The translations under genes were made by a program, and so were the position numbers. Source: Lachnospiraceae bacterium YSB2008 (GTDB lineage: Bacteria > Bacillota > Clostridia > Lachnospirales > Lachnospiraceae). From it: a stretch of 64,000 nt of DNA. Of this stretch, positions 49,776-64,000 are shown piece after piece (the stretch's first letter is position 1; each line of letters begins with the position of its first letter). Where the stretch lies: NCBI GenBank assembly GCA_000687655.1, contig JHWR01000002.1, positions 1 through 64,000 of the forward strand, read 5' to 3'. The notes beneath the pieces are model-generated. The model saw only the letters and a program-made list of their open reading frames with translations, did no database searches and was not told the origin of the DNA.

Positions 49776-49804
49776 TTGAAATAAAGTAATAAGTGTACTA
49801 GAAT
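49776..49804 (+). promoter_or_regulatory. sigma-A promoter of the decarboxylase operon
   Basis: TTGAAA (49776-49781), 17-base spacer, TAGAAT (49799-49804); the start site is predicted near 49811. Confidence 0.75.
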
Positions 49805-49820
49805 ATACTCGGTCTAAATT

Positions 49821-49855
49821 GGCTTTAGAGTAGCCTTTAAGGCTGCCTTTTATTT
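49821..49855 (+). promoter_or_regulatory. leader with competing short hairpins
   Basis: AGCC at 49832-49835 can pair with GGCT upstream (49821-49824) or with GGCT downstream (49841-49844). The downstream hairpin is followed by GCCTTTTATTTT, so it resembles a weak intrinsic terminator and the pair resembles a small attenuator. Stems are only 4-6 bp, so this may be chance. Confidence 0.35.
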
Positions 49856-49882: not shown

Positions 49883-51307
49883 ATGAGCGTAAATGCCGGT
49901 ATGTCAGCAAGCGACAGAATCAATGCTTTGCTTGATGACGCAAGTTTCGTTGAAGTTGGTGCTTATATAACAGCAAGAAACACTGATTTCAATACTGATG
50001 CACTTGATACGCCCAAGGACGGTGTCATAACCGGATATGGACTTATCGGTGGAAGATTAGTTTATGTTTACAGCCAGGACAGAAGCGTTCTTTCCGGATC
50101 GATCGGAGAGATGCATGCTAAGAAAATAGCTAAGCTTTATGACATGGCTATGAAGATGGGAGCACCTGTTATTGGTCTTATAGACTGTGCAGGCCTCAGA
50201 CTCAGAGAAGCAACAGATGCACTTAATGCATTCGGAAGACTTTACATGAAGCAGACTATGGCTTCAGGAGTTATTCCTCAGATTACTGCAATTCTGGGAA
50301 CATGCGGTGGAGGAGTTGCTGTTATACCTTCACTCACTGACTTTACATTTATATCAGAAGATGGCGGAAAGCTTTTTGTTAACAGTCCTAATACACTGGA
50401 TGGAAATTATGTTGAGAAAGAGGATACTTCTGCAGCAGGTTATATAAGTGAGAATACATCACTTGTTGATAAGGTTCTTAAAACTGATGCTGAAGTTTTA
50501 GCTGAAATCAGAAACTTCATAGAACTCATCCCTTCTAATTGTGATGAGGAAGGTTTCCTTGATTCTGAAGATGATCTCAACAGAACACTTCCGGGCATAG
50601 ATTCAATGTCTGATGATGCAAGAGGAATAATCTCTTCAGTTGCTGATGATAATTATTTCTATGAAATAAAAGAGCATTATGCTCCTGAAATGGTTACAGG
50701 TTTCATCAGACTTAATGGATTCACAACAGGTGTTGTTGCTAACCAGATCAAAGATGGAAGTGATAAGCTTACTACAGGCGGAATGCAGAAGGCTGCTAAG
50801 TTCGTAAGCTTCTGTGATTCGTTTAATGTTCCTGTACTTACATTTACAAATGTAAAGGGATTTGCGGCTTCCATAGATGAAGAGAAGACTATATCAAGCA
50901 GTGCTGCAAAGCTTGTTCAGACATTTGCAAATGCAACTGTTCCTAAGGTAAATGTTATAACAGGCGAGGCTTATGGTACTGCATTTACTGCTATGAACTC
51001 AAAGTCAATCGGCGCTGATATAGTATACGCATGGCCAAAGGCTAAGGTTGGTATGATGGATGCAGAGATGGCTGCAAAGATCATATATGAAGAAGAGATA
51101 GACAGCAGCGAAGATAAGGTTAAGGCTATAGCAGAGTATAAGAATCAGTATGAGAACATACAGGGTTCTGCACTTTCAGCTGCTAAGCGCGGATATGTTG
51201 ATGATATCATCGAACCTGATGCAACCAGAAAGAGAGTTGCTGCTGCTTTTGAGATGCTTTCTACAAAGATTGAGGAAAGACCTTTAAAAAAGCATACATC
51301 TATATAG
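49883..51307 (+). CDS. acyl-CoA carboxyltransferase subunit (MmdA/12S-like), divergent
   Basis: A 474-residue crotonase-fold carboxyltransferase of the PccB/MmdA/transcarboxylase-12S family, expected to move CO2 between an acyl-CoA and carboxybiotin. N-terminal half: DSASFVEVG-type opening, YVYSQDRSVLSGSIGEMHAKKI, GAPVIGLIDCAGLRLREA. C-terminal half: GFTTGVVANQIKDGSDKLT, FTNVKGFAAS in place of the usual DVPGF, ITGEAYGTAFTAMNSKSIGADIVYAWPKAKVGMM. It is shorter than typical MmdA (about 510) and several conserved motifs are changed, so its acyl-CoA specificity may differ or be lost. First gene of a five-gene operon. GGAGG precedes the ATG. Confidence 0.88.
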   Translation: MSVNAGMSASDRINALLDDASFVEVGAYITARNTDFNTDALDTPKDGVITGYGLIGGRLVYVYSQDRSVLSGSIGEMHAKKIAKLYDMAMKMGAPVIGLIDCAGLRLREATDALNAFGRLYMKQTMASGVIPQITAILGTCGGGVAVIPSLTDFTFISEDGGKLFVNSPNTLDGNYVEKEDTSAAGYISENTSLVDKVLKTDAEVLAEIRNFIELIPSNCDEEGFLDSEDDLNRTLPGIDSMSDDARGIISSVADDNYFYEIKEHYAPEMVTGFIRLNGFTTGVVANQIKDGSDKLTTGGMQKAAKFVSFCDSFNVPVLTFTNVKGFAASIDEEKTISSSAAKLVQTFANATVPKVNVITGEAYGTAFTAMNSKSIGADIVYAWPKAKVGMMDAEMAAKIIYEEEIDSSEDKVKAIAEYKNQYENIQGSALSAAKRGYVDDIIEPDATRKRVAAAFEMLSTKIEERPLKKHTSI

Positions 51308-51323
51308 AAAGGCGGTTATAGAG

Positions 51324-52280
51324 ATGAAGAAAAAAATAATACTTCTCTTTATGATGTCTGTTCTTTTGCTAATGACTGCCTGCGGCGAGGAGAAGACTGC
51401 TACAAACTTCGAATATAATCAGGGAGTTATGGTAGCAATCAACCAGTCTCTTATAGATCAGTACAAGGATGTGAGTGACCTTGAGTATGATTATTATTCT
51501 ACAGAAGGTACTGATGTTGAGAAGGCTGCTGTATCAGGCTTTAAGATGGCAGAGACAACTGACCATGTTGGATCATTTGTTGGATTTGATACTTCAAATG
51601 AAAATGTAAGGATAGTTGATGGCAATGATGGCCAGATACTCTGCACAACCAGATGCATATATAAGAACAGAAATGTAGATGTTACTGTTTATTATAAAGA
51701 GAACAAAGAATTCAATCTGCAGAAGTCACAGCTTTATGAGACTCTTGCTAATGAAGCTATTCAGGCCGGATATAATAACCTGGATCAGTATGTTGCTGAG
51801 AATTATGCTGATTATGGATTTTCAATAGATTCGGCTGACGCTTTCCTGGATGATGTTATCATGAACAATGGTAATATCACTCCATACAAGGCTGTTGATG
51901 TGGAAGTAAGTGCAGTATATTCGCGAGAAGAGCTTCTTAAAAAAGCCGGTATCAATACCGGAATCGGAATGATCACCGTATTCTCAGTGCTTATTTTCAT
52001 AGCTTTCATTATCTACCTTCTTAAGTTTGTTCCAATGATGCTTGAAGGAAAGAAGAAAGAAGAGCCAAAGGCTGAGGTTAAGAAAGAAGTTAAAGTTGCT
52101 TCTGTACCGATTGCACCGGCTGCTGCCGAAGAAGAGCTTGATCCGGATAAGGATCATGAACTTATTGCAGTTATAACAGCTGCACTTTATGCATATTTAG
52201 GAAATGATAACGTAAGTACACCTGTCTGCACAGATAGCAATGACAGATTGGTTGTTCGTTCTATCAGAAGAGTCAGATAA
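51324..52280 (+). CDS. lipoprotein-like OadG (decarboxylase gamma/delta) subunit
   Basis: A 318-residue protein in two parts. Residues 1-20 are a lipoprotein signal with lipobox LMTAC (Cys20), followed by an extracellular region of about 185 residues. A single membrane helix (about 212-234, IGMITVFSVLIFIAFIIYLL) then leads to a cytoplasmic Lys/Glu/Ala linker and an end ELIAVITAALYAYLGN...VRSIRRVR, which is the conserved C-terminal motif of OadG/MmdD-type subunits that tether the carboxyltransferase to the pump. Ordinary OadG is under 100-130 residues with no lipobox; the extracellular extension is unusual. Seventeen bases after the carboxyltransferase gene. Confidence 0.82.
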   Translation: MKKKIILLFMMSVLLLMTACGEEKTATNFEYNQGVMVAINQSLIDQYKDVSDLEYDYYSTEGTDVEKAAVSGFKMAETTDHVGSFVGFDTSNENVRIVDGNDGQILCTTRCIYKNRNVDVTVYYKENKEFNLQKSQLYETLANEAIQAGYNNLDQYVAENYADYGFSIDSADAFLDDVIMNNGNITPYKAVDVEVSAVYSREELLKKAGINTGIGMITVFSVLIFIAFIIYLLKFVPMMLEGKKKEEPKAEVKKEVKVASVPIAPAAAEEELDPDKDHELIAVITAALYAYLGNDNVSTPVCTDSNDRLVVRSIRRVR

Positions 52281-52300
52281 TATCAGGAGGAATAAAATTC

Positions 52301-52687
52301 ATGAAAAACTATAGAATTACAGTTAATGGTACATCATATGACGTAGCTGTTGAAGAAGTATCAGGCGGCGCAGCACCTGCAGCAGCACCTGTTGCAGCAC
52401 CTAAGGCAGCAGCTCCTGCACCTGCAGCTGCACCTGCACCAGCAGCTAAACCTGCAGCAAGCGGCAATGAAGGAAGCGTTAAGATTGCTGCTCCAATGCC
52501 AGGAAAGATTCTCAGTGTTAAGACTGAAGCAGGCAAGGAAGTTAAGAAGGGTGAAGTACTTCTTATACTTGAGGCTATGAAGATGGAAAATGAGATAGTT
52601 GCTTCTCAGGATGGAACAGTTGCATCTGTAAATGTATCTGTAGGCGATGCTGTTGAAGCCGGCGATACACTTGCAACACTTAACTAA
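52301..52687 (+). CDS. biotin carboxyl carrier protein of the Na+ pump
   Basis: A 128-residue carrier. Residues 1-20 are a short conserved head ([20 protein letters not shown]), 21-55 a Pro/Ala swivel linker, and 56-128 a biotinyl domain with the biotin attachment motif EAMKMEN (Lys94). It equals the MmdC/GcdC or transcarboxylase 1.3S type. AGGAGG precedes the ATG. It shuttles CO2 between the carboxyltransferases and the membrane subunit. Confidence 0.95.
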
Positions 52688-52716
52688 TACGTTCATTTCT
52701 TGCAGGAGGAAAAAAG

Positions 52717-53838
52717 ATGCTTGAAGTACTTTCGAATCTGGCAAGTCAGACTGGTTTTGCAACACTTGACTGGAAGAACTACATAATGATATTGTTTGCA
52801 TTTTTCTTTATGTATCTTGCAATTGCCAAGGGCTTTGAACCACTCTTACTTGTTCCAATATCCTTCGGTATGTTCCTGGTTAACATGTTCCCGGATATCA
52901 TACAGGAAGGCGGACTTTTACATTATTTCTACAAACTTGATGAATGGAGTATTCTCCCTTCACTTATATTCATGGGCGTTGGTGCCATGACAGACTTTGG
53001 ACCGCTTATAGCCAATCCGGCAAGTTTCCTGCTTGGAGCGGCAGCTCAGTTTGGTATATATGGTGCTTACTTTATGGCAATCTTTCTTGGATTCACAGGT
53101 AAAGAAGCAGCAGCTATATCTATCATAGGTGGCGCAGACGGTCCTACATCCATTTTCCTTGCAGGTAAGCTTGGAATGGGTGGAACACTCATGGGACCGA
53201 TAGCGGTGGCAGCTTATTCATACATGTCACTCGTTCCGGTTATTCAGCCTCCTATCATGAAGGCACTCACAACTGAAAAAGAGAGGAAAATCAAGATGCC
53301 TCAGCTTCGTCCTGTTACTAAGCTTGAGAAGATTCTCTTCCCTATAGTTGTTACACTTGTTGTAGTTCTTATACTTCCAACTACAGCACCTCTCGTAGGT
53401 ATGCTTATGCTTGGTAATCTTTTCAGAGAGTCAGGAGTTGTTAAGCAGCTTACAGAAACTGCTTCAAATGCAATGATGTACATAGTTGTTATTCTTCTTG
53501 GTACATCTGTTGGTGCAACAACCAGCGCAGAAGCATTTCTTAATGTCAGCACACTTAAGATAGTTCTTCTCGGACTTATCGCATTCTGTCTTGGTACAGC
53601 TACAGGCGTTGTTTTCGGAAAGATCATGTGTGTTGTAACAAAGGGCAAGGTTAATCCGCTCATCGGATCAGCAGGTGTATCTGCAGTTCCTATGGCAGCA
53701 AGAGTTTCACAGAAGGTTGGATCAGAGTATGATCCTACAAACTTCCTTCTTATGAATGCTATGGGTCCTAACGTTGCCGGAGTTATCGGTACAGCAGTTG
53801 CAGCAGGTTCATTCCTTGCTATATTTAACGTTCATTAA
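52717..53838 (+). CDS. Na+-translocating decarboxylase beta subunit (OadB/MmdB)
   Basis: A 373-residue integral membrane protein with about nine to eleven helices that decarboxylates carboxybiotin and exports Na+. Family signatures: [41 protein letters not shown] (the Asp in the Na+ path), and the end [16 protein letters not shown]...[18 protein letters not shown]-like sequence. Length is slightly under the usual 375-430. AGGAGG precedes the ATG. Confidence 0.96.
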
Positions 53839-53855
53839 CAGTTGGAGGTAATATA

Positions 53856-55277
53856 ATGGCTGAAACAAACAGAAAAGTCGGGATTACCGAAACAGTCCTC
53901 CGTGATGCGCATCAGTCTCTGATAGCTACACGTATGACAACAGAGGATATGCTCCCGATAATAGATAAAATGGATCAGGTTGGATATCATTCAGTAGAGT
54001 GCTGGGGTGGTGCTACATTTGATGCATGTCTCAGATTCCTTAAGGAAGATCCATGGGAAAGACTTAGAAAGCTTAAGGATGGCTTCAAGAATACAAAGCT
54101 TCAGATGCTTTTCAGAGGTCAGAATATTCTTGGTTACAATCATTATTCTGATGATGTAGTTGAGTATTTCGTACAGAAGTCAATAGCAAACGGTATTGAT
54201 ATCATCCGTATATTCGACTGTCTTAATGACCTTCGTAACCTTGAGACAGCAGTTAAGGCTGCTAACAAGGAAGGCGGTCATGCACAGATAGCTCTTTCAT
54301 ATACTCTCGGTGATGCATATACTCTTGACTACTGGAAGAATATTGCTAAAGAAATAGAAGAGATGGGTGCTAATTCCATTTGTATTAAGGATATGGCAGG
54401 TCTTCTTGTTCCATACGAGGCTGAGAGACTTGTTAAGGCTCTCAAGGAAGGTACAAGTCTTCCTATACAGCTTCATACACATTACACATCAGGTGTTGCT
54501 GCTATGACATATCTTAAGGCTGTAGAAGCAGGATGTGATGTAATAGATACAGCAATGTCACCTATGGCTATGGGTACATCTCAGCCTGCAACTGAGGTTC
54601 TTGTTGAGACATTTAAGGGTACTCCTTATGATACAGGTCTTGATCAGACTCTTCTTGCTGAGATAGCTGATTACTTTGCACCTCTTCGTGAAAAGTATAT
54701 AGAAAGCGGACTTATGAGCACAAAGGTTATGGGTGTTAATATCAAGACACTTCTTTATCAGGTACCTGGTGGAATGCTTTCAAACCTTGTTTCTCAGCTT
54801 AAAGAAGCAGGACAGGATGATAAGCTCAGAGACGTTCTTGAGGAAGTGCCAAGAGTTCGTAAGGACTTCGGCGAACCACCTCTTGTTACACCATCTTCAC
54901 AGATAGTTGGTACTCAGGCAGTTCTCAACGTTCTTTACGGTAATGGCGGAGAAGGCCCTGAGAGATATAAGATGTTTACTCAGCAGTCCAAGGATCTGCT
55001 TTCAGGAAAGTATGGTCAGACAGTTAAGCCTTTCAATTCTGAGGTTCAGAAGAAGGCTATCGGCGATGTAGAGCCTATAACATGCAGACCTGCTGATAAG
55101 ATAGCTCCACAGCTTCCGGAGATGGAGAAGGCTATAGAGCAGTACAAGCAGCAGGATGAGGATGTTCTGTCATATGCTCTGTTCCCGCAGGTTGCTACAG
55201 AATTCTTTAAGTACAGAGAAGCTCAGCAGAAGAAAGTTGATGTATCAGCTGCAGCTGATGGAGCTTATCCTGTATAA
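53856..55277 (+). CDS. oxaloacetate decarboxylase alpha / transcarboxylase 5S-type carboxyltransferase
   Basis: A 473-residue TIM-barrel carboxyltransferase of the OadA/pyruvate carboxylase family, acting on oxaloacetate and pyruvate. Signatures: ETVLRDAHQSLIATRM (metal Asp), MLFRGQNILGY, CIKDMAGLL (catalytic, carboxylated Lys), LHTHYTSGVAAM (metal His pair) and DTAMSPMAMGTSQPATE. It stops after the conserved PYC_OADA helical domain and lacks the C-terminal biotin domain of full-length OadA, consistent with use of the separate biotin carrier. TGGAGG precedes the ATG, 17 bases after oadB-like. A hairpin after the gene ends the operon. Confidence 0.94.
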   Translation: MAETNRKVGITETVLRDAHQSLIATRMTTEDMLPIIDKMDQVGYHSVECWGGATFDACLRFLKEDPWERLRKLKDGFKNTKLQMLFRGQNILGYNHYSDDVVEYFVQKSIANGIDIIRIFDCLNDLRNLETAVKAANKEGGHAQIALSYTLGDAYTLDYWKNIAKEIEEMGANSICIKDMAGLLVPYEAERLVKALKEGTSLPIQLHTHYTSGVAAMTYLKAVEAGCDVIDTAMSPMAMGTSQPATEVLVETFKGTPYDTGLDQTLLAEIADYFAPLREKYIESGLMSTKVMGVNIKTLLYQVPGGMLSNLVSQLKEAGQDDKLRDVLEEVPRVRKDFGEPPLVTPSSQIVGTQAVLNVLYGNGGEGPERYKMFTQQSKDLLSGKYGQTVKPFNSEVQKKAIGDVEPITCRPADKIAPQLPEMEKAIEQYKQQDEDVLSYALFPQVATEFFKYREAQQKKVDVSAAADGAYPV

Positions 55278-55355: not shown

Positions 55356-56603
55356 ATGAGAAAAATGATAATTATTGGCGGTGGAGCTGCAGGTATGATG
55401 ACGGCGGCCCTCGCTGCTGACAGGTATAAAGTGACTCTATTCGAGAAAAATGAAAAGCTCGGTAAGAAGCTTTTTATTACCGGTAAAGGCAGATGTAATC
55501 TGACCAATAATTCCGGAGAAGAAGAGTTTCTAAGAAATGTAGTCACAAACAATAAATTCTTATACAGCGCCATAAATGCTTTCGGTCAGTCGGATGTCAT
55601 GGAGTATTTTGAAAAGCTCGGACTCAGGCTTAAGACTGAGAGAGGAAACCGTGTTTTTCCGGTCAGTGATCATTCCAGTGATGTTATCAGGACTCTTGAA
55701 CAGGAACTTAAGAGAAAGGGTGTTAACGTCTTTCTTAACAGGAAGGTTGATGAATTAAGAATTACTGATAAAGAAGAAAATGGAGAGATTATTCATCAGG
55801 TTACAGGAGTTGTTTCGGGTGGAAAAACCTATGATTCAGATGTAGTTGTTATAGCTACAGGAGGTATTTCATATCCTCAGACCGGTTCTGACGGCGATGG
55901 ATTTAAATTTGCCAGAGGACTTGGCGTTGATGTAACTAAGCTTTATCCTGCCCTGGTTCCTGTCAGACTTAAGGATGATTTCTGCACGGAACTTATGGGA
56001 CTTACTCTCAAAAACGTCCGCATTTCATTTTCTTATATGAAAAAGAATAAGAAGAAGGATATTTATACGGAACAGGGAGAGATGCTATTTACCCATTTTG
56101 GTATAAGCGGTCCGCTTGTATTGTCAGGCTCATCATATCTCCATAAGTTTAAGGATGATGAGATTCTCATATCACTTGATCTTAAACCTGCACTTTCAGA
56201 AGATAAGCTTGAACAGAGAATAATCCGGGATTTTGAGGCCTTTAAGACAAGAGAGCTTAAAAATGCTCTCGGGGAACTGCTTCCAAGAGCAATGATTCCA
56301 TTTGTAATTAATAAAAGCGGTATAAATCCTGACAGACGTGTAAATGGACTGAGCAAAGAAGAGATAAAGAAGCTTGTCTATACATTTAAAAACTTTGATA
56401 TGCAGTATGATGGCCTTATGGGTTATGATCAGGCAATTATAACCTCCGGTGGAATTTCTGTTAAGGAGATTGATCCAAGAACAATGGAACTGAAAAAAAT
56501 TAGCGGAATCCGGGTCGCAGGTGAGGTAATTGACTGTGATGCACTGACTGGTGGTTTTAATCTGCAGATTGCATGGAGTACGGCATATCTGGCCTCCAGA
56601 TGA
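55356..56603 (+). CDS. BaiN/HI0933-family FAD-dependent oxidoreductase
   Basis: A 415-residue flavoprotein. The Rossmann FAD motif is IIGGGAAGMMTAALAA, followed by the family signature EKNEKLGKKLFITGKGRCNLTNN; VVIATGGISYPQTGSDGDGF and the C-terminal ITSGGISVKEIDPRTM...GEVIDCDALTGGFNLQIAWS are also diagnostic (HI0933/YhiN, BaiN). Reported activities differ within the family, so the substrate is left open. Position before cmk and ispH is common in Clostridia. The ribosome site before the ATG at 55356 is weak. A second family member starts at 63236. Confidence 0.9.
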   Translation: MRKMIIIGGGAAGMMTAALAADRYKVTLFEKNEKLGKKLFITGKGRCNLTNNSGEEEFLRNVVTNNKFLYSAINAFGQSDVMEYFEKLGLRLKTERGNRVFPVSDHSSDVIRTLEQELKRKGVNVFLNRKVDELRITDKEENGEIIHQVTGVVSGGKTYDSDVVVIATGGISYPQTGSDGDGFKFARGLGVDVTKLYPALVPVRLKDDFCTELMGLTLKNVRISFSYMKKNKKKDIYTEQGEMLFTHFGISGPLVLSGSSYLHKFKDDEILISLDLKPALSEDKLEQRIIRDFEAFKTRELKNALGELLPRAMIPFVINKSGINPDRRVNGLSKEEIKKLVYTFKNFDMQYDGLMGYDQAIITSGGISVKEIDPRTMELKKISGIRVAGEVIDCDALTGGFNLQIAWSTAYLASR

Positions 56604-57422: not shown

Positions 57423-59444
57423 ATGGAAGTTATTGTTGCAGATAAAGCAGGATTTTGTTTCGGTGTAGAAAAGGCAGTTAATACTGCTTTTTCTTCTTGT
57501 AAGGAATATGCTGAAAAAGGAATTCCTGTTTATACATATGGTGACATTATACATAATGAGGAGGTTATCGAGAGACTTAAGTCTGCAGGTGCAATGAGGC
57601 TTGATGATATCGATGATCTTTCAGATAAAGAAAAAGCCGCAGTTATTATAAGATCTCATGGTGTGTCCAGAGAGGAAATGGACCGCATAAAGGCTACGGG
57701 AAGTATAGTAATAGATGCTACATGTCCCTTCGTTAGTCACATACATAAGATAGTGGATGAGAAGAGTAAAAACGGGACTGTTATCATCATTGGAAATCAT
57801 AATCATCCGGAAGTAGAAGGTACAAAAGGGTGGTGTAACAGTGAGCCTTTTATAGTCTCAGATGAGAAAGATCTGGACTTGCTTCCGGAAATTTCTGATA
57901 CCGAAATTACTGTGGTTGGACAGACTACATTTAGTCTTCAAAAATTTCAATATTTAGTTGAATTATTGCAAAAAAAATATTATAATATCAATGTTTGTAA
58001 AACTATTTGTAATGCGACCGAAGATCGTCAGCGCGAAACCGCCGAATTAGCCCGGAAGGTTGATGCGATGATAGTCATAGGAGGCAAAAGTAGTTCAAAC
58101 ACTCAAAAATTATATGATATAAGCAGATCAATATGTAAAAATACTTACTATATACAGACACTTGTTGACTTGGAGGGGACTTCGTTCGAATCCTTTGGTA
58201 GGGTAGGTATTACTGCTGGGGCATCTACCCCGAATTACATCATTAAGGAGGTTATTGAGCGAATGTCAGAGATGAGTTTTGAGGAAATGTTAAACAACGA
58301 GGAAGAGGTTCAGATCAGAACCGGCAGCAGAGTTGAAGGTACTGTTGTAAGTGTTAAGCCAGATGAGATTATCGTGGATATCCACTATAAGTCAGAGGGT
58401 GTTATTACAAGAAACGAGTACTCAAGCCAGCCAAACCTCGATCTCACCACAGTTGTTAATGTTGGTGACCCTATATCTGCAAAGGTTATCAAGACCAATG
58501 ATGGAGAGGGACAGGTAGTTCTTTCTACCAGACGTATTGAAGCTGAGAAGGCTTATACAAAGCTTGAGGAAGCTTTCAATAACGAAGAAGTACTTTCAGG
58601 AAAGGTAGTTCAGGTTCTTTCCGGTGGACTTTCAGTTCAGGTAGACGCATGCAGAGTATTCATACCTGCAAGTCTTGTATCAGATAACTTTGAAAGAAAT
58701 CTTGAGAAGTATCTTGATCAGGAAGTTGAGTTCAAGCTTATTGAGTGTGATATAGCCGGAAGAAAGAAGCGTATCATTGGTGACAGAAAGCAGGTTGTAT
58801 CTAAGAAGAAGGCAGAGGCAGCTAAGGAACTCTTCGACAGAATCGAAGTTGGACAGGTTGTTGAAGGAACAGTTAAGAATGTTACTGATTTCGGTGCTTT
58901 CATAGATCTTGGCGGAGCAGACGGACTTCTCCATATATCAGAGATGTCATGGGGCAGAGTTGAGAGCCCTAAGAAGCTTTTCAAGGTTGGTGATACTGTA
59001 AAGTGCTTCATCAAGGATATCAATGGTGAGAAGATAGCTCTTTCACTTAAGTTCGAAGATGATAATCCATGGCTTAAGGCTGAGGAGAAATATGCTAAGG
59101 GTACTGTTGTTACAGGTAAGATTGCCCGCATGACTGACTTTGGTGCATTTGTAGTTCTTGAGCCTGGTATAGATGCTCTTCTTCATGTTTCTCAGATTTC
59201 AAACGAGAGAGTTGAGAAGCCAAGCGATAAGTTCAAGATAGGTGATGAGGTTACAGCTAAGGTTGTTGACTTCAAAGCATCTGAGAAGAAAATCAGCCTT
59301 TCAGTAAGAGCGCTTCTTCAGGAAGAAGAGACAGAAGCTGAAGAAGAAGCTGCTGAGGAAGTTCAGGAGGAAGCTCCTGTAGCTGAAGAAGCAACAGAAG
59401 AAGTAACTGAAGAAGTTGCAGAAGAGACAGCAACTGAGGAATAA
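57423..59444 (+). CDS. IspH (HMBPP reductase) fused to ribosomal protein S1
   Basis: A 673-residue fusion. Residues 1-280 are IspH, the [4Fe-4S] enzyme that makes IPP and DMAPP from HMBPP: cluster Cys in AGFCFGVEKA, DATCPFVSHIH and CNATEDRQRE, with TAGASTPNYII near the end. Residues about 298-625 hold four S1 RNA-binding repeats: the first two are divergent (EGTVVSVKPDEIIVDIHYKS, GKVVQVLSGGLSVQV), the last two canonical (VKNVTDFGAFIDLGGADGLL, IARMTDFGAFVVLEPGIDAL). A Glu/Ala/Thr-rich tail (630-673) ends the protein. This fusion is known in Clostridia. An internal promoter and ribosome site may give a separate S1 of 393 residues, and codon use changes abruptly in 57936-58262. Confidence 0.95.
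   Translation: MEVIVADKAGFCFGVEKAVNTAFSSCKEYAEKGIPVYTYGDIIHNEEVIERLKSAGAMRLDDIDDLSDKEKAAVIIRSHGVSREEMDRIKATGSIVIDATCPFVSHIHKIVDEKSKNGTVIIIGNHNHPEVEGTKGWCNSEPFIVSDEKDLDLLPEISDTEITVVGQTTFSLQKFQYLVELLQKKYYNINVCKTICNATEDRQRETAELARKVDAMIVIGGKSSSNTQKLYDISRSICKNTYYIQTLVDLEGTSFESFGRVGITAGASTPNYIIKEVIERMSEMSFEEMLNNEEEVQIRTGSRVEGTVVSVKPDEIIVDIHYKSEGVITRNEYSSQPNLDLTTVVNVGDPISAKVIKTNDGEGQVVLSTRRIEAEKAYTKLEEAFNNEEVLSGKVVQVLSGGLSVQVDACRVFIPASLVSDNFERNLEKYLDQEVEFKLIECDIAGRKKRIIGDRKQVVSKKKAEAAKELFDRIEVGQVVEGTVKNVTDFGAFIDLGGADGLLHISEMSWGRVESPKKLFKVGDTVKCFIKDINGEKIALSLKFEDDNPWLKAEEKYAKGTVVTGKIARMTDFGAFVVLEPGIDALLHVSQISNERVEKPSDKFKIGDEVTAKVVDFKASEKKISLSVRALLQEEETEAEEEAAEEVQEEAPVAEEATEEVTEEVAEETATEE
57958..57986 (+). 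promoter_or_regulatory. internal promoter candidate inside ispH-S1
   Basis: TTGAAT (57958-57963), 17-base spacer, perfect TATAAT (57981-57986), within an AT-rich patch of the IspH coding part. It lies about 280 bases upstream of the S1 portion and could give an S1-only transcript. Coding sequence can create such matches by chance. Confidence 0.45.
58245..58265 (+). promoter_or_regulatory. internal ribosome binding site and ATG at the IspH/S1 junction
   Basis: AAGGAGG (58245-58251) lies 11 bases before an in-frame ATG (58263-58265, residue 281, MSEMSFEEML), exactly between the IspH and S1 halves. Starting there gives a 393-residue S1, the normal size of a Firmicutes S1 protein. The spacing is slightly long. 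Confidence 0.5.
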
Positions 59445-62119: not shown

Positions 62120-63230
62120 GAAAAGGTTGGTAGCTGTAACACTTAGTGCCTGTATCGTACTTGCATCACTTTCTGCTTGCGGCAAAAAAGAAGAGACTAC
62201 TACTGAAAAACCGGACAGTATTTCTGAAAAGGTTTATGATATTAATACTGATTCCGATGCTATGATCGAAGATAATGATGAAGATACTGTTCTTATGAAG
62301 GACGGAAAGCTTCAGCATGATCTTACAGGTGAGTGGATAACACCTGAAGAAAATGAAAAGAGATATATTGCAGTCATGGTAAATAACATAGCTCAGGCTA
62401 TGCCTCAGTCCGGTATAGAAGAAGCTGATGTTATATATGAGATGCTCGAAGAAGGCGGTATCACAAGACTTCTCTGCCTGTTCTCTGATTATGAGGATAT
62501 TGAGCAGCTCGGACCTATAAGAAGTACAAGAGATTATTATCAGATCAAGGCTCTTGAGTATAATGCTATACTTACTCACTGGGGCGCATCTGTATATGCT
62601 GAGCAGTATTGGGAACAGCATCCAAGTGTAAGCCATCTTGATCTTAATGGTAAGGATAACCGTTCAGGATTCCGTGTAAGCAGACCTGGTTATGCTATTG
62701 AACATACAGCATATACAACAGGTGAGCTTATCAATAAGTCAATTGAAGCTGACGGATATGATTTCAAGAAACAGGAAAACTACAGAAGAATGTTCCTCTT
62801 TAACACAGAGGATACTGATCTTAAAGACGGTGTCAGCGCTAAGAAAGTTGAAACAAACTATAACGCTAACAGAACTCCTTGGTTTGAATATGATGAGTCA
62901 ACAGGTCTTTATAACAGATTCCAGTATGGCAAGCCACAGATAGATGAAGTAACAGGAAATCAGATTGCATTTAAGAATGTCATCATACAGTTTGCTCCTC
63001 ATAAGTCAAGAGATGACGGTGCAGGAAGTATAGATATCAGCTTCTCAGGTTCAGGTGAAGGCTTCTATGCTACTAATGGTCAGATCATTCCTATTAAGTG
63101 GGAAAAGGATGAAACATTTGGAGTAACTAAGTTTAAGACTGTTGATGGTGAAAAGCTTAAACTCAATCCTGGTAAGACATGGATAACAGTTTTCCCTGAT
63201 ACTCAGAAGAGTGATATTGTATATCAGTAA
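62112..63230 (+). CDS. DUF3048 lipoprotein (YerB-like)
   Basis: A 372-residue predicted lipoprotein: MFKKRLVAVTLSACIVLASL signal with lipobox SLSAC, then a Thr/Glu/Asp-rich spacer. The two-part DUF3048 domain has VMVNNIAQAMPQSGIEEADV, LEEGGITRLLCLFSDYEDIE, LGPIRSTRDYYQIKALEYNA and, at the end, KFKTVDGEKLKLNPGKTWI. Function of the family is unknown; YerB is a membrane lipoprotein in Bacillus. The start overlaps the ybeY stop by 8 bases, so translation is coupled. Confidence 0.9.
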   Translation: MFKKRLVAVTLSACIVLASLSACGKKEETTTEKPDSISEKVYDINTDSDAMIEDNDEDTVLMKDGKLQHDLTGEWITPEENEKRYIAVMVNNIAQAMPQSGIEEADVIYEMLEEGGITRLLCLFSDYEDIEQLGPIRSTRDYYQIKALEYNAILTHWGASVYAEQYWEQHPSVSHLDLNGKDNRSGFRVSRPGYAIEHTAYTTGELINKSIEADGYDFKKQENYRRMFLFNTEDTDLKDGVSAKKVETNYNANRTPWFEYDESTGLYNRFQYGKPQIDEVTGNQIAFKNVIIQFAPHKSRDDGAGSIDISFSGSGEGFYATNGQIIPIKWEKDETFGVTKFKTVDGEKLKLNPGKTWITVFPDTQKSDIVYQ

Positions 63231-63235
63231 AGAAT

Positions 63236-64000
63236 ATGAACGAATACGATTTATGCATTATAGGAGCAGGAGCTTCCGGTCTTACGGCAGCCATAGAAGC
63301 GTCGAAGAGAGGACTCAGCACTATAATCATAGAAAAGAATAAGAAAATAGGACGTAAGCTATACGCAACAGGGAACGGCAGATGCAATATTGCAAATGCC
63401 GTTCTTCGTGCGGATAGCTTCTTTTTTAATTCATATGTAAATGAATTGATAGACGAAAATACATCAGATTATTTACGTGAATACTTTTTAAAACTCGGTG
63501 TACCATTCAGCGAGAAGGATGGCCTGTTTTATCCTTCTTCTTTCCAGGCTTCAACAGTTGTATGGGCTCTAAGGGATGCTGCTGTATCAACAGGTGTCAG
63601 CTTTGCTACGAACAATATGGTTTCAAAGATTGAAAAAGGTTCAGATGGTTCACATGTTGTTTCTTTTGATGATGATGGGGAATCGATTAAAGCTCGTAAC
63701 CTGATTCTTGCTATGGGAAGTCCGGCTTCAAAGTCTGCCGGCGGAACAGATGCAGATGATATTTATAGATTGTTTAAAGCTTTCGGTATTTCATATAACG
63801 AGTTCAGGCCGGTTCTTACGCCGATTCCTTGTTCTGATATTCCTGAAGAACTTAACGGAGTGAGAGCTTATGCGAGAGCTGAAATATCTTATGAAGGTCA
63901 GGATAAAGAAAGAGTTATATCAGAGACCGGTGAGCTTCAGTTTCTGACAGGTTTTCTTTCGGGAATAATGATCTTCAATCTGTCATATTATGTTCGAAAT
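63236..64000 (+). CDS. BaiN/HI0933-family FAD-dependent oxidoreductase (partial, runs off the window)
   Basis: The first 255 residues are in the window. MNEYDLCIIGAGASGLTAAI is the FAD-binding start and KNKKIGRKLYATGNGRCNIAN the family signature (compare GKKLFITGKGRCNLTN in the copy at 55356). ILAMGSPASKSAGGTD follows. The 3' end lies beyond position 64000. It begins 5 bases after the DUF3048 stop with no clear ribosome site. Sequence differences from the other copy are large, so they are old paralogues, not a recent duplication. Confidence 0.88.
   Translation, partial: MNEYDLCIIGAGASGLTAAIEASKRGLSTIIIEKNKKIGRKLYATGNGRCNIANAVLRADSFFFNSYVNELIDENTSDYLREYFLKLGVPFSEKDGLFYPSSFQASTVVWALRDAAVSTGVSFATNNMVSKIEKGSDGSHVVSFDDDGESIKARNLILAMGSPASKSAGGTDADDIYRLFKAFGISYNEFRPVLTPIPCSDIPEELNGVRAYARAEISYEGQDKERVISETGELQFLTGFLSGIMIFNLSYYVRN

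Follow-up and report, generated by a model that had tools for sequence, protein, structure and literature searches.

The window analysed here comprises 64,000 nucleotides of Lachnospiraceae bacterium YSB2008 (JHWR01000002.1, positions 1 to 64,000) and belongs to contig C2 of that genome (G000; 2.69 Mb, assembled in 29 contigs). At 49883-55277 it contains an operon of five open reading frames (ORFs) on one strand, spaced by 16-29 bases, that joins parts of a Na+-translocating oxaloacetate decarboxylase (OAD) to a diverged carboxyltransferase-fold subunit. Here we explore this operon and its probable connection with acetyl-CoA carboxylase (ACC). Its genes are:

49883..51307, + strand: 12S-like carboxyltransferase-fold subunit of a diverged clade, hereafter 12S*, 474 aa (PF01039)
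51324..52280, + strand: OadG-like membrane subunit, 318 aa (PF04277 at residues 207-291)
52301..52687, + strand: free biotin carrier, 128 aa, with EAMKMEN motif (PF00364, 71.7 bits)
52717..53838, + strand: OadB, membrane carboxybiotin decarboxylase/Na+ pump subunit, 373 aa (PF03977, 502 bits)
53856..55277, + strand: 5S/OadA-type ketoacid carboxyltransferase, 473 aa, without biotin domain (PF00682, PF02436)

An earlier sequence-only reading had named the same five genes in this order, and they are present as it described them. Its label 12S/MmdA-like for the first product holds for the carboxyltransferase fold (Carboxyl_trans PF01039, 361 bits, E 1e-107), but the protein is only a distant relative of MmdA, scoring 436 bits with TIGR01117 (mmdA) against a cut-off of 998.8; among solved structures it is related to propionyl-CoA carboxylase beta chains and to 12S. 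The proposed OadG-like tether does have an OadG C-terminus (OAD_gamma PF04277, 67.5 bits, E 2e-18; TIGR01195 36.3 bits, barely above the cut-off of 36.05), to which an additional N-terminal part must be added: 51324-51940 encodes a lipoprotein-like start and a stretch of about 200 aa that has no Pfam match. A short OadG was seen in two other families of the same taxonomic order (L041, L042). The carrier is a Biotin_lipoyl protein whose top NCBIfam model is MmdC-like (E 9e-42). OadB matches OAD_beta (E 1e-150), TIGR01109 (473.6 bits) and the solved OAD beta structure 6iva, and the 5S protein matches HMGL-like, PYC_OADA and, above its cut-off of 718, the oxaloacetate decarboxylase alpha model NF008985 (749.6 bits), with pyruvate carboxylase, OAD alpha and 5S as solved relatives.

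Fatty acid synthesis begins with ACC, which is also a drug target and whose carboxyltransferase AccDA requires a carboxylated biotin carrier. To our knowledge the ATP-dependent biotin carboxylase (BC, AccC) is usually considered indispensable to this enzyme. Of the heteromeric ACC parts the genome of the window has AccA and AccD; AccC and an AccB of its own were not found. A six-frame search with PF02785 detected no BC in the genus (0/37 genomes, of which G002 and G005 are single-contig assemblies) and gave a match in 13 of 14 control genomes; AccA is present in all 37. PF00364 finds one biotinyl domain in the genome of the window, that of the operon's carrier. The sequence-only reading had proposed a three-way exchange in which CO2 passes between acyl-CoA, pyruvate/oxaloacetate and the membrane pump. 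More surprising than this exchange is a genome in which AccDA is present and BC undetected, and in which no biotin protein other than the operon's carrier was found.

The same constellation was looked for in a family sample of 160 genomes, one per genus except for two from the genus of the window. BC was found in 112 of these, AccA in 133 and a 12S match in 146, such a match not always being 12S* (that of G286 is canonical). Genomes with AccA divide into 98 with BC and 12S, 11 with BC only, 24 with 12S only and none with neither; those without AccA into three with BC and 12S, 21 with 12S only and three with neither. In all 24 genomes with AccA but no BC the 12S was confirmed as 12S* at the fetched loci. 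The operon locus was viewed for each of them: 23 span 12S* to 5S, with OadG unrecognised by BLAST in six and, in G277, a 12S truncated at the end of its contig; in G233 the contig edge follows OadB. Biotinyl domains were then counted in 65 genomes. Among 26 with AccA but no BC (the 24 above plus G002 and G005), 24 have exactly one such domain, always beside the operon's 12S*. One domain was also counted in 18/18 examined genomes (of 21) that have 12S but neither AccA nor BC; two or more in 16/16 examined (of 98) that have AccA, BC and 12S; and 1, 2, 1 and 1 in four of the 11 that have AccA and BC without 12S. This count is stronger evidence than the co-occurrence table. On an OadB+5S tree of 73 author-chosen rows (45 without and 28 with BC) the presence of BC changes at least 13 times, at least six of these changes being forced by supported branches. 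For the genomes that lack both AccA and BC (e.g. G212, G234, G241, G344), 20 of 21 12S loci were fetched, 19 of them five-gene and that of G286 canonical; the genomes with the operon may either scavenge fatty acids or rely on 12S* to make malonyl-CoA.

The fatty acid synthesis loci agree with this picture. The genome of the window reads accD-accA-fabK-fabD-fabG-fabF-fabZ, with no accB or accC recognised nearby. Corresponding loci were fetched for 19 of the 24 family genomes with AccA but no BC and for G002 and G005 (L165 is cut by a contig end); all 21 keep accD and accA and have no accB-like or accC-like frame. At the loci fetched from genomes with BC, accB and accC are both present in 19/19 (in 18, accB was recognised as a carrier by BLAST in 17 and by motif in one; L264 is the nineteenth). 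The AccD of the window's genome retains the zinc ribbon and GG motifs, and 50 of 57 AccD columns are kept in genomes without BC. In AccD and AccA pairs from five such genomes the proportion of nonsynonymous differences (pN) is 0.18-0.25 in both proteins and that of synonymous differences (pS) is 0.74-0.85 for AccD and 0.62-0.94 for AccA, close to saturation. At the level of sequence AccDA stays conserved without BC.

A genome survey for the five-gene order, which had been suggested together with the three-way exchange, found it to recur across Lachnospiraceae and in other families of the order. In 80 named loci all five genes were found by BLAST in 53 and four of the five in 13, where OadG was unrecognised by BLAST; 12 loci are interrupted by a contig end. 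OadB is absent, with flanking sequence in view, from the remaining two, L075 (Clostridium sp. HBUAS56010) and L092 (a Herbinix metagenome-assembled genome), which read 12S-OadG-carrier-5S. The operon order also occurs in at least eight of 24 genomes from other families of the window's order, a figure for which only part of the 12S matches was fetched; at three of the eight loci OadG was unrecognised by BLAST. In the genus itself 12S matches (E < 1e-80) were obtained in 33 of 37 genomes, in two as fragments, and the four genomes without a match have a completeness of 71-80%. In the tree the 12S of Lachnospiraceae bacterium C6A11 (L054) adjoins L036, the 12S of another member of the genus, a position that assigns the window to Lachnospiraceae. 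Of 149 genomes sampled from the phylum, 86 have 12S, 74 have OadB and 129 have the 5S domain. Clustering was judged here from coordinates, so that clusters divided between contigs are missed: 12S, OadB and 5S occur together only in G000 and G191, two genomes from the window's family; four genomes (G094, G106, G144, G199) have 12S clustered with 5S but not with OadB, and 16 have OadB clustered with 5S but not with 12S. The recurrence of the gene order is far beyond chance, and the five-gene set is a three-module combination that, in the samples examined, is confined to the taxonomic order of the window. The inheritance of two carboxyltransferase-type subunits, a free carrier and pump parts as a unit is supported. 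G094 carries two mutase-linked operons (L137, L138) whose 12S are identical in the tree alignment; one has OadB, as a decarboxylase pump, and the other has 5S in its place, as a transcarboxylase.

On the pump side, 5S positions D17, Q20, K178, H207 and H209, to which we ascribe catalytic roles, are invariant in 145/145 rows. The OadB of the window retains nine of ten functional StOAD positions: the equivalents of Glu40, Asp203, Tyr229, Asn311, Asn373, Gly377, Ser382, Arg389 and Asn412 are each conserved in 146-148 of 148 rows. The tenth, Arg304 (OadB residue 244, window 53446-53448), is Gln in 139 of the 148 five-gene rows and Arg in 14/14 OadB rows from canonical-12S loci; the preceding residue is Lys or Arg in 134 of 148. 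Inactivation of OadB by this replacement was dropped as a mechanism, since the effect of R304A given in the available part of PMC7274780 is a moderate inhibition with a tripled Na+ requirement. The evidence seen raises no objection to a working oxaloacetate-driven Na+ pump, which the operon may well encode. A second OadB, outside the window (G000:C2:216417-217490; L134:8280-9799), is 47% identical to that of the operon and has His and Ser at the positions equivalent to Asn311 and Arg304; it adjoins a 104-aa OadG-like membrane protein and glycolytic-looking genes, with no carrier or carboxyltransferase recognised beside it.

The 12S* subunit differs more. In a tree of 78 12S rows the 56 of 12S* and the 22 canonical ones split cleanly (support 100/100). 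When 158 12S* rows (153 distinct) were compared with the 22 canonical rows, 12S* was found to retain 85 of 203 conserved canonical positions, to switch 24 and to relax 94. With exceptions in individual rows, GGARIQEG has become AGLRLQEA and MFITGP has become LFVNSP, the GGA..H...SG motif is missing, and the second oxyanion GG is G[ST] (AYGGAY..M.SK to A[YF]G[ST]AY..MNSK). Retained are G104, R106, E109, the first oxyanion GG (G143, G144) and G365, the roles of which, including that of G143/G144, we presume from the family. Ratios of nonsynonymous to synonymous substitution rates (dN/dS), determined for six close pairs, are 0.09-0.13 for 12S*, 0.09-0.16 for the carrier, 0.01-0.03 for OadB, 0.03-0.05 for 5S and 0.18-0.24 for OadG (one pair saturated). 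In these pairs OadG shows the highest rate of the five, and the rate of 12S* is several times that of 5S and OadB. A simply decaying gene was nevertheless ruled out, given the low dN/dS and the recurrence of the altered motifs as a signature. Broken copies suspected in G210 and G322 were also ruled out, since their frames are open (469 and 453 aa) and the other four genes are present. From its sequence 12S* is constrained, yet it does not look like a standard acyl-CoA carboxyltransferase, and it is a constant partner that may act as a second carboxyltransferase on a different substrate or serve for docking. L075 and L092 take separate positions among the 12S* rows of the tree, so that OadB was probably lost twice, with both carboxyltransferases retained; a loss of OadB that leaves 12S, OadG, carrier and 5S in place fits an exchange between the two carboxyltransferases. 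The proposed three-way exchange is plausible, but the acyl-CoA activity that it gave to the 12S-like subunit is not supported in that form, many residues conserved in canonical 12S being lost or swapped.

Our best explanation, to which we give a probability of roughly 0.6, is a Na+ pump of the oxaloacetate-decarboxylase type with a second task for its carrier, the charging of chromosomal AccDA, the AccDA part being reached by elimination. Since BC and a second carrier were not found in the genome, the operon's carrier most likely serves AccDA as well. The likely acyl-CoA partner would then be AccDA, encoded outside the window. Judging from family knowledge and intact residues, 5S would pass CO2 from oxaloacetate to the free carrier, and OadB, anchored by OadG, would free CO2 while exporting Na+. 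The carboxylated carrier would hand its CO2 to AccDA, giving malonyl-CoA for the fab pathway. It could be charged from oxaloacetate via 5S, by an ATP-free transcarboxylation as in transcarboxylase, or from CO2 via OadB driven in reverse by the Na+ gradient. The contact between carrier and AccDA, the source of the CO2 and its direction are what we infer from this combination of genes.

Several results weigh against this explanation. A 12S match occurs in 98 genomes that have both AccA and BC, so that serving AccDA cannot be the sole role of the operon. Taken alone, the joint occurrence of the operon and BC loss does not reach significance (Fisher p = 0.21) because 12S matches are near universal (146/160), and it was not used as proof. 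Two of the 26 genomes with AccA but no BC have additional biotinyl domains, G256 two and G298 three; in G256 the second domain is clustered with OadB and a 12S of canonical type (L258). Only 46 of 69 AccA columns that are invariant in 18 rows with BC are kept in 21 rows without it, and the motif GEGGSGGAL shows one change in 10/21 rows without BC vs 1/18 with BC, the AccA of the window's own genome (G000:C1:91636-92547, outside the window) reading GEGSSGGAL. An AccA match at the cut-off used is missing in 24 of 48 genomes without BC, so that AccA without BC could be a stage of decay. Finally, the absence of BC was judged by a single model, PF02785, in six-frame searches, and the window's own assembly is in 29 contigs; a BC might have been missed as too diverged, unassembled or of an unrecognised kind. 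We consider this improbable, given that the genus yielded none in 37 genomes, including two in one contig, that in other members of the family PF02785 still picks up diverged BCs scoring as low as about 85 bits, and that accB and accC are both gone from their usual place at the fetched loci. The carrier count, independently, is one in 24/26 genomes with AccA and in 18/18 examined without it.

Three other explanations concern the operon itself. In the stricter form of the earlier model 12S* is an active acyl-CoA carboxyltransferase, most likely acting on malonyl-CoA/acetyl-CoA, that exchanges CO2 with 5S and OadB through the carrier, AccDA not being needed for this exchange. Purifying selection on 12S* and the retained G143, G144, R106, E109 and G365, with the roles presumed above, speak for it, as do the two OadB-less lineages with both carboxyltransferases and carrier, the operons elsewhere in the phylum in which canonical 12S, carrier and 5S stand without OadB beside mutase genes (L138, L262, L263), and the use of a 'putative transcarboxylase' for malonyl-CoA in a C. 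thermocellum model (PMC5414155, part of the text). The extent of relaxed and switched positions and the several altered motifs argue against an active enzyme, and AccA in 37/37 genomes of the genus indicates that AccDA has not been replaced by 12S* there; this form of the model is possible but on the unlikely side. Those same lost residues, the faster evolution of 12S* relative to 5S and OadB, and the case of G046, changed even at the first oxyanion GG, would suit an ordinary OAD Na+ pump with a structural or docking, non-catalytic 12S*, AccDA being idle or fed by something unrecognised. The half of the BC-less genomes that have no AccA match also speaks for this alternative. But the motif changes recur as a new signature over 158 rows, which is not free drift, and the AccDA frames are open and conserved in the fab operons of the 21 genomes fetched, and we regard this alternative as doubtful. 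A standard methylmalonyl-CoA decarboxylase (MmdADCB) or the methylmalonyl-CoA:pyruvate transcarboxylase of the propionate pathway is very improbable. It would account for the order 12S-OadG-carrier-OadB, which is that of mutase/epimerase-linked mmd operons (L141, L142); the scores, however, remain below the curated cut-offs for MmdA (436/998.8 bits), MmdC (142.6/200) and MmdD (19.4/150), and canonical 12S and 12S* are separate on the tree. A methylmalonyl-CoA mutase gene lies at 15 of 21 annotated canonical 12S loci, and also at L262 and L263, whereas the annotated five-gene loci have no recognised gene for mutase, epimerase or MeaB in their neighbourhood, the mutase not having been searched for genome-wide. 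A plain mmd operon was rejected on cut-offs, motifs, tree and neighbourhood. The 12S of the G046 five-gene set (L052), in which the first oxyanion GG reads GI, sits on a long branch; that genome has no BC match and one biotinyl domain.

Compared with known systems, the operon resembles the OAD of K. pneumoniae, V. cholerae and Salmonella in its 5S-type alpha subunit with kept positions, the Na+-site residues of OadB and an OadG-type tether; it differs in having the carrier as a separate protein, a 12S-like subunit, a large N-terminal part of OadG, and mostly Gln (139/148 rows) at the Arg304 position. It shares the 12S-OadG-carrier-OadB order with mutase-linked mmdADCB operons, but has a diverged 12S, an added 5S and no mutase or epimerase recognised beside it. 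Like the propionibacterial transcarboxylase (12S, 5S, 1.3S) and loci L138, L145, L262 and L263 it combines two carboxyltransferases with one free carrier; unlike transcarboxylase it adds the membrane pump subunit OadB and has altered 12S motifs. With heteromeric ACC (AccABCD) these genomes share AccD and AccA in a fab operon, and differ in that AccB and AccC were not found. The carrier of the Enterococcus faecalis OAD is presumably a free protein too, and we know of no 12S-like subunit in that system. As far as the consulted part of PMC3198936 describes it, OAD genes are there also distributed over several ORFs (oadHDB ... oadA), in a citrate pathway setting unlike that of the present operon. 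Decarboxylase pumps are reported to be reversible, carboxylating pyruvate and acetyl-CoA (Dimroth and Hilpert 1984, as cited in the part of PMC7274780 at hand). Malonyl-CoA by transcarboxylation is not a new idea either: the C. thermocellum model iCth446 assigns its formation to the putative transcarboxylase Clo1313_1523-1526, the standard ACC being lacking (PMC5414155, by its description of the model). In that organism the standard ACC is described as missing altogether; in the present case AccDA remains and only AccB and AccC have disappeared. In the literature searched, which covers subscription journals thinly, no report was found of a BC-less ACC or of an AccDA that, once AccB and AccC were lost, is supplied by the carrier of a Na+ pump.

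It is about an even bet that many Lachnospiraceae make malonyl-CoA with a BC-less ACC, the single carrier of the Na+ pump acting as a CO2 currency that is loaded by 5S or by reversed OadB and spent on AccDA and 12S*, and the ATP arm having been discarded repeatedly. If so, fatty acid synthesis would be paid for by oxaloacetate or an ion gradient instead of ATP, and lipid synthesis would be joined directly to membrane energy and the oxaloacetate/pyruvate node in a widespread gut family. The reversal of Na+ decarboxylases seen in vitro would become a physiological route, and the wide retention of the operon would be explained in part.

Upstream of the operon, pattern matching gave two candidate signals:

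49776..49804, + strand: possible promoter, TTGAAA-17-TAGAAT
49820..49846, + strand: hairpin with a T-rich tail, lying after the promoter-like site and before the operon's first gene

Matches to the promoter pattern are as numerous in the region as expected by chance. The hairpin may either terminate the gene upstream or act as an attenuator. An Rfam search of the window found only an rRNA end and a tRNA. Downstream, 57423-59444 encodes a 673-aa frame that we take to be a fusion of IspH, an isoprenoid enzyme, with ribosomal protein S1 repeats. Two related-looking flavoprotein genes, with GGGAAGM and GAGASGL starts, lie about 7 kb apart at 55356-56603 and 63215-64000.

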